DNA of 64,000 bases from Sphingorhabdus sp. EL138. Lineage in GTDB: Bacteria > Pseudomonadota > Alphaproteobacteria > Sphingomonadales > Sphingomonadaceae. Shown here piece by piece: positions 56,345 to 56,507 of this stretch. The stretch is taken from contig NZ_CAMCWY010000014.1 of NCBI RefSeq assembly GCF_945882965.1, positions 1-64,000 on the forward strand. The letters run 5' to 3'. A program made the position numbers and the translations under genes. The notes below the pieces were generated by a model. The model made no database searches. It was given only the letters and a program-made list of their open reading frames with translations, and was not told where the DNA came from. Position 1 is the stretch's first letter, and every line of letters starts with the position of its first letter.

Positions 56345-56507
56345 GAGTCCTTCGGGTAACACCACTAGGGGTTGAGTCTACCCAGATTCGCAAGACTCCA
56401 CATATTGTGCCAGACTCGTTTCGTTCCGCTTACAGCAAGGCATAATGCCTGTTGTTCTGAAGAATCCCCAACCATCAACGACCTTGACCCAAGGGCCTTG
56501 CTGACTC
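56345..56507. promoter_or_regulatory. Cluster of seven GANTC sites upstream of ccrM
   Basis: GANTC occurs at 56345, 56374, 56385, 56394, 56413, 56462 and 56503 (first bases): GAGTC twice, GATTC, GACTC three times and GAATC. Random expectation for 163 bp is about 0.6 sites. This is the recognition sequence of CcrM-type methylases, and the cluster lies between rnhB and the ccrM start. In Caulobacter, GANTC sites in the ccrM promoter link its transcription to methylation state (established); a denser array here suggests similar feedback. Confidence 0.75.

Follow-up and report, generated by a model that had tools for sequence, protein, structure and literature searches.

A helically phased array of GANTC sites precedes the ccrM methylase gene in Sphingomonadaceae and may serve its autoregulation

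The window analyzed here is a 64,000-nt stretch of a contig of Sphingorhabdus sp. EL138, the genome of which (G000) comprises 2.355 Mb in 38 contigs. The ccrM gene of this window encodes a protein of 376 aa that combines an N6_N4_Mtase domain with a RAMA domain, as expected of a CcrM-type orphan methylase, and that is 98% identical to the CcrM of a Sphingomonadaceae MAG and 90-97% identical to those of Sphingorhabdus records. When the two flanking genes were looked at for a restriction partner, they were found to encode RNase HII and a pterin-binding enzyme. A GcrA protein of 235 aa is also encoded in the genome (E 6.8e-42 to the Pfam family GcrA). From the rnhB stop (56329) to the ATG of ccrM (56542) there is a gap of 212 bp, and seven GANTC sites are present within 163 bp of it (Table 1), as the first-pass annotation of this DNA had claimed. 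That the cluster belongs to the rnhB-ccrM gap was also correct, because the nearest other GANTC sites are located at 55495 and 56922.

Table 1. Features of the ccrM gene and of the region upstream of it; coordinates are those of the window, and lattice positions are relative to site 5.
Feature	Coordinates	Strand	Remarks
ccrM	56542..57672	+	376 aa; N6_N4_Mtase and RAMA, Pfam E 2.1e-67 and 5.1e-20
ccrM-dedicated block, match of model R1	56343..56428	+	E 7.1e-19 in own genome
GANTC site 1 (GAGTC)	56345..56349	+	lattice position -68
AACACCACT, the form taken here by the conserved element CACACC(A)C	56358..56366	+	between sites 1 and 2; alignment, column conservation
GANTC site 2 (GAGTC), left dyad half	56374..56378	+	lattice position -39
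Optional GANTC (GATTC) near the dyad centre	56385..56389	+	position -28
GANTC site 4 (GACTC), right dyad half	56394..56398	+	position -19
GANTC site 5 (GACTC), block anchor	56413..56417	+	position 0
TTTCGTTC element adjoining site 5	56419..56426	+	alignment, column conservation
Spacer GANTC (GAATC)	56462..56466	+	lattice position 49
-35-like hexamer TTGACC (candidate)	56484..56489	+	71 bp, i.e., seven helical turns, from site 5
Promoter-side GANTC (GACTC)	56503..56507	+	19 bp past the -35 start; abuts a weak -10-like CATCGC (56507-56512)

On base composition (3.83 GANTC per kb) about 0.62 sites are expected in 163 bp, a value that matched the 0.6 given before. The actual density is lower, with 1106 sites counted over 864 kb of the genome, or 1.28 per kb, so that about 0.2 sites are expected in a stretch of this length, and a Poisson estimate gives 2.4e-4 seven-site clusters per genome. 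The window as a whole contains 75 GANTC sites, against a mean of 218 after shuffling; outside the ccrM cluster the genome avoids GANTC, and the depletion in the window agrees with GANTC as the predicted target of CcrM. The GANTC content of the window and of 40 further stretches of 20 kb (864 kb in all, 37% of the 2.355 Mb) was counted per 163 bp, and in this part of the genome the ccrM locus ranked first with 7 sites per 163 bp, the second- and third-densest stretches holding 6 and 5 sites. The second (L184, 16972-17126, in G000:C15) was observed upstream of an M23 peptidase gene that is followed by a bactofilin gene, and the third (L262) lies inside and beside a tRNA-Gln gene. In the relative G131 the maximum was 4 sites per 163 bp in 400 kb sampled away from ccrM. 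At 79 named loci, the GANTC density of the 280 bp preceding ccrM was 17-fold that of the flanks, and in the same comparison the control pentamers GTNAC and CTNAG reached 1.0-fold and 2.6-fold, respectively. Tandem duplication was rejected as the source of the array, since 56320-56560 contains neither direct nor inverted repeats of at least 10 bp.

At least five GANTC sites were present in the 300 bp before ccrM in 50 of the 64 Sphingomonadaceae genomes (median 6, range 1-11). The median was 5.5 in other families of the order (26 genomes, range 4-9) and 3 in other orders (27 genera, range 0-7), G176 being left out of the count for the class, as its ccrM start had not been recognized. Since the enrichment is seen across many Alphaproteobacteria it is not lineage-specific, contrary to what had been proposed; as judged from the promoters compared, the part that is specific to Sphingomonadaceae is the lattice of about 10 bp together with the whole-turn distance to the -35 element (see below), neither of which the first-pass annotation had noticed. 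A further expectation, that the number of sites is kept in near relatives, held for the Sphingorhabdus-type loci L091, L092 and L093, with seven sites at the same places, and nearly so for G083 and G131, with eight, but not for G071, which is assigned to the genus of the window and has four. No 10-bp period was detected among the GANTC sites before ccrM in the other families of the order; rigid arrays with family-wise spacings, such as 41/13/15/11 and 27/12/7, were noticed there (e.g., L077, L080, L073 and L074). In strict-sense Sphingomonas, site 1, the CACACC element, the right dyad half and the promoter site are retained, and other sites were lost. Two further features were observed in this group: several of the reduced arrays (L100, L115, L133 and others) contain a DnaA-like TGTGGATAA that separates the two halves of the dyad, and GTTAAC half-sites precede TTGACG.

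The conservation in the block extends beyond the GANTC sites as such. Sites 2 and 4 form a GAGTC-N15-GACTC dyad, with AT and CAC/GTG farther out. In a set of 90 distinct promoters the central base was G in site 1 (84/84, at -70 to -66) and in site 2 (80/80), whereas it was C in site 4 (80/80) and in site 5 (64/67); the GANTC by the -10 had a central C in 77 of 84 cases and was followed by A in all 84. At the optional sites any central base was found, where each fixed site has one. The terminal four letters of TTTCGTTC, GTTC, were conserved at 99-100% in 94 rows, a figure that is inflated because these rows were picked by their similarity to that motif. The fixed sites would hence make base-specific contacts, and at the optional sites a GANTC as such would be required. 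Downstream of the block, a strict sigma-70 scan of the window found no promoter at TTGACC and no -10 consensus. TTGACC is probably the true -35 element, and the predicted start of ccrM transcription is near 56519; in most relatives GANTC sites follow TTGAC at about 8 and about 19 bp, and the window has the second only. Two other details were recorded: a T- or A-rich run just before site 1 in many relatives (56330-56340 in the window, and equivalents), and, within the spacer (window 56438-56450), a short hairpin of the terminator type, AGGCATAATGCCT, of which about 0.3 would be expected by chance.

A dyad of this kind could also belong to a structured RNA leader, or to a terminator of the upstream gene, which we regard as very improbable. 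Such a structure would account for the covariation of the dyad (score 0.175 vs 0.125, above all 500 shuffles), but only 73% of the cells pair, consensus folding (alifold) gave -1.2 kcal/mol with a different helix, the best Rfam match reached 12.1 bits against a cut-off of 44, and the promoter-like elements are located downstream of the block. A cis-regulatory RNA was therefore rejected, as neither a conserved secondary structure nor an Rfam family at cut-off was found.

The block is, as far as the genomes searched can tell, dedicated to ccrM. With the R1 sequence model at E <= 0.01, 60 of the 144 Sphingomonadales genomes searched were matched, namely 59 of the 61 from the family, at ccrM (match and ccrM coordinates were compared by eye), and G022, a genome of another family, where the match (E 0.005) likewise lies upstream of ccrM. 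Among the non-matching genomes listed, those of the family were G047 and G132. The only match away from ccrM at this threshold was a weak one in G019:C2 (E 0.0036). At the looser threshold of E <= 0.1, 54 of 59 family genomes were matched in a search that covered about 45 new genomes of the family, and nearness to ccrM was checked at ten fetched loci, three of which came from genomes already known: the FADPPYN motif was present downstream in 10/10. Matches away from ccrM in this search were G273:C1:2064082 (E 0.049) and G286:C18:74592 (E 0.097). Many R1 matches on the opposite strand overlap the block itself, owing to its dyad. A regulon sharing the block was rejected, because BLAST against its own genome returned the block alone and the R1 matches elsewhere were few and weak.

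The arrangement of the sites was then compared with the helical repeat. In Sphingomonadaceae, the inter-site distances cluster at 9-11, 19-20, 29-30, 38-41, 48-50, 68-70 and 79-80 bp, and onward. The distances between GANTC pairs had a period of 9.9 bp, with a vector strength of 0.64 in 64 family genomes (1044 pairs) and of 0.63 in 80 named loci (1155 pairs), and 300 random placements of each set gave at most 0.115 and 0.095, respectively; these two sets overlap, and the 90 genome rows and the 80 named loci of the wider comparison share members, so that the counts are not independent. GANTC pairs elsewhere, i.e., in the own genome, in G131 and in flank sequence, were unphased (0.03, 0.11 and 0.08). 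Phasing as a general trait of GANTC-rich promoters was rejected, since the promoters of M23 peptidase orthologues carry many GANTC sites (a median of 4 in 300 bp) yet are unphased (0.06, 18 loci).

The distance between the block and the promoter falls on whole helical turns. From site 5 (as GACTC-N-TTTCGTTC) to TTGAC it was 50 bp in 3 promoters, 59-62 bp in 76 and 69-72 bp in 23, which accounted for all 102 anchored promoters, these being the ones that scored >12 bits among 170 examined. The 68 rows with 12 bits or less comprised 26 from other families and 42 that belong to the family or come from the named loci, the latter being largely strict-sense Sphingomonas with its reduced block; with a looser anchor some of the 68 fell at 49-50 or 59-61 bp, and G062 fell at 128 bp, on an anchor match with 3 mismatches. 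A second TTGAC was present at 55 in G140 and in the named copy L098, and three rows had an additional one at 78, 110 or 119. On a CcrM tree built quickly from 110 rows, of which 78 had a state, the spacing class changed at least 11 times, each time to a class one turn away. Sister promoters that differ by 11 bp were found (L147/L162, L168/G019, L130/G136 and L120/G030), and in L130/G136 the difference is a single clean gap with well matched flanks. The control length, from the -35 to the ATG, was far less phased than the distance from the block to the -35 (0.46 vs 0.96 in the same 47 promoters, and 0.39 vs 0.94 over 23 distinct length pairs).

Most of the optional sites lie near such a lattice as well. 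Near the dyad centre a middle site was present in 28 of 69 promoters placed on the tree, at -28 (13), -29 (2) or -30 (13) only, and on the tree it was gained or lost at least 14 times. Sites near 31, 41 and 50 (47-53) occurred in 10, 23 and 27 of the 69 promoters, with at least 6, 10 and 10 changes. As many as 85 of the 99 non-fixed sites lay 2 bp or less off a 10.05-bp lattice, about half being expected, although this lattice was fitted after the fact. Since the optional sites accept any central base, GANTC itself seems to be what is wanted there. When each cluster of similar spacer sequences was represented by a single promoter, 23 promoters remained, of which 9 carried 15 extra sites between them; the phase of these spacer sites was not significant, as 1759 of 20000 random placements were as good. 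In the unthinned set the control pentamer CTNAG (17 sites) likewise appears phased, and therefore p-values computed without regard to relatedness come out too low. The claim rests on the whole-turn spacing rather than on the phase test of the spacer sites.

These last results are those expected if the phasing were a mere relic of descent from one ancestral promoter, without present selection. We nevertheless find this improbable, because descent alone would not be expected to move the spacing class repeatedly by one full turn, to insert or delete 11 bp between sisters, to gain and lose the middle site always within -28 to -30, and to leave the stretch from the -35 to the ATG so much less phased. 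It is also unlikely, if slightly less so, that the array consists mainly of CcrM sites that prolong hemimethylation after replication, or titrate CcrM, with no specific reader needed. The raised GANTC density before ccrM in many Alphaproteobacteria is consistent with such a delay or titration, but for either purpose the number of sites suffices, and the helical phase, the fixed central bases and the whole-turn spacing would be superfluous.

A control role linked to GANTC remains the best reading of the array, and a GcrA platform, the gene for GcrA being present, had been among the options of the first-pass annotation. We propose, with a probability of about 0.55, that the array is conserved and dedicated to ccrM, that a GANTC reader, most likely GcrA, binds it face-aligned with RNA polymerase, and that methylation by CcrM feeds back on the gene. 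The block (site 1, the dyad, site 5 and TTTCGTTC) and the optional GANTC sites would share one face of the helix, and this face would be aligned, at whole-turn spacing, with a weak promoter of the sigma-70 type. A reader of GANTC methylation, most likely GcrA, would bind along that face, one site next to the other, and would touch RNA polymerase, so that the methylation presumably laid down by CcrM on these sites would set ccrM transcription, upward or downward. The simplest reader of a GANTC comb with helical phase is a set of GcrA-type proteins lined up on one face, in register with the polymerase.

Two points count against GcrA: this protein is not known to require conserved letters outside GANTC, which the block contains, and the motif of Caulobacter GcrA, YGAKTCK, fits 2 of the 7 sites of the window. 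One study gives YGAKTCK as the Caulobacter motif and describes no such preference in Brevundimonas (PMC7987155). According to two other reports, Caulobacter GcrA binds methylated GANTC and protects ctrA P1 from the -35 to the -10 when both strands are methylated, and the promoters with a GANTC between the -35 and the -10 form a timed class (PMC3667746, PMC4287350). In Sphingopyxis granuli, the ccrM mRNA went down 7-fold on a shift to anoxia (PMC6472365); therefore, ccrM is transcriptionally controlled in Sphingomonadaceae.

The block could instead be the operator of another, putative regulator of the Sphingomonadaceae, with methylation of the embedded GANTC sites helping or blocking its binding, so that the methylase would write its own switch. 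We hold this to be a minor possibility, though one to be kept in view. The target of such a protein would be the extended dyad CAC-N3-AT-N-TTGAGTC-N15-GACTCAA-N-AT-N3-GTG plus TTTCGTTC, and it would explain the letters conserved beyond GANTC, the fixed central bases of four block sites, the dyad symmetry with its weak covariation, and the whole-turn spacing to the -35. However, a dedicated regulator with a single target would be unusual, no second strong copy of the block was found in 59 family genomes, and optional GANTC sites with any central base better fit a GANTC reader.

Other inputs are apparent at many ccrM promoters. GTTAAC(C/G)A, a CtrA-type half-site, was found in 36 of the 79 named promoters, and perfect copies of the DnaA box TTATCCACA in 37 of the 79, against 0.002 per kb in the flanks. 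Of 54 occurrences of this box, 48 are placed exactly 28-29 bp past the first base of TTGAC, where the box would overlie the predicted transcription start (e.g., L164 and L154). The ccrM promoter of the window, checked by eye, has neither a perfect DnaA box nor GTTAAC. A CtrA half motif, TTAA, is described in PMC4287350.

The array resembles the ccrM promoter of Caulobacter in that the methylase gene is preceded by its own target sites; the CtrA-type half-sites of 36 of the 79 relatives are a second point in common. According to PMC3973325, the Caulobacter gene is "most probably" controlled by methylation. The two promoters differ in that there are seven sites here, arranged as a phased comb with a dyad. 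In Caulobacter the ccrM promoter is activated by CtrA, with few GANTC sites near its leader. The GcrA-activated promoters of mipZ, ctrA P1 and podJ in Caulobacter have a GANTC between -35-like and -10-like elements, as the candidate promoter of the window may have, and a GcrA gene is present in our genome too; in contrast to them, the ccrM array has far more sites, which begin some 140 bp before the -35-like element, with helical phasing, conserved non-GANTC letters and YGAKTCK at 2 of 7 sites. In the Dam-dependent switches pap, agn43 and opvAB, methylase sites lie inside regulator sites before a gene, whereas here the regulated gene is proposed to be that of the methylase itself. A synthetic memory circuit (PMC5458116) has palindromic sites overlapping GANTC before ccrM, through which CcrM governs its own operator, and can behave as a bistable switch; it is engineered and uses a zinc-finger repressor, whereas the present array is natural and has a putative reader. 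No prior description of the array was found in the literature searched, subscription journals lying mostly outside it. Methylation-responsive promoters of the GcrA type are known; what is new is that a comb spaced by whole turns precedes the gene of the methylase itself.

Our understanding of how Alphaproteobacteria confine CcrM to a brief phase of the cell cycle comes mainly from Caulobacter. A comb of the enzyme's own target sites in front of ccrM suggests that its marks feed back on the gene, and a comb that stands before ccrM alone, in rigid helical register, provides a concrete cis element for probing the autoregulation of the methylase. It may also be seen as a natural counterpart of the engineered CcrM memory circuit. 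More tentatively, the array could be a natural self-writing switch, i.e., a palindromic operator with methylase targets in its half-sites, on which a methylation-sensitive oligomer would assemble on one face, in register with the polymerase. If so, the methylase would be shut off or latched on cooperatively, in an all-or-none manner, once in each round of replication.
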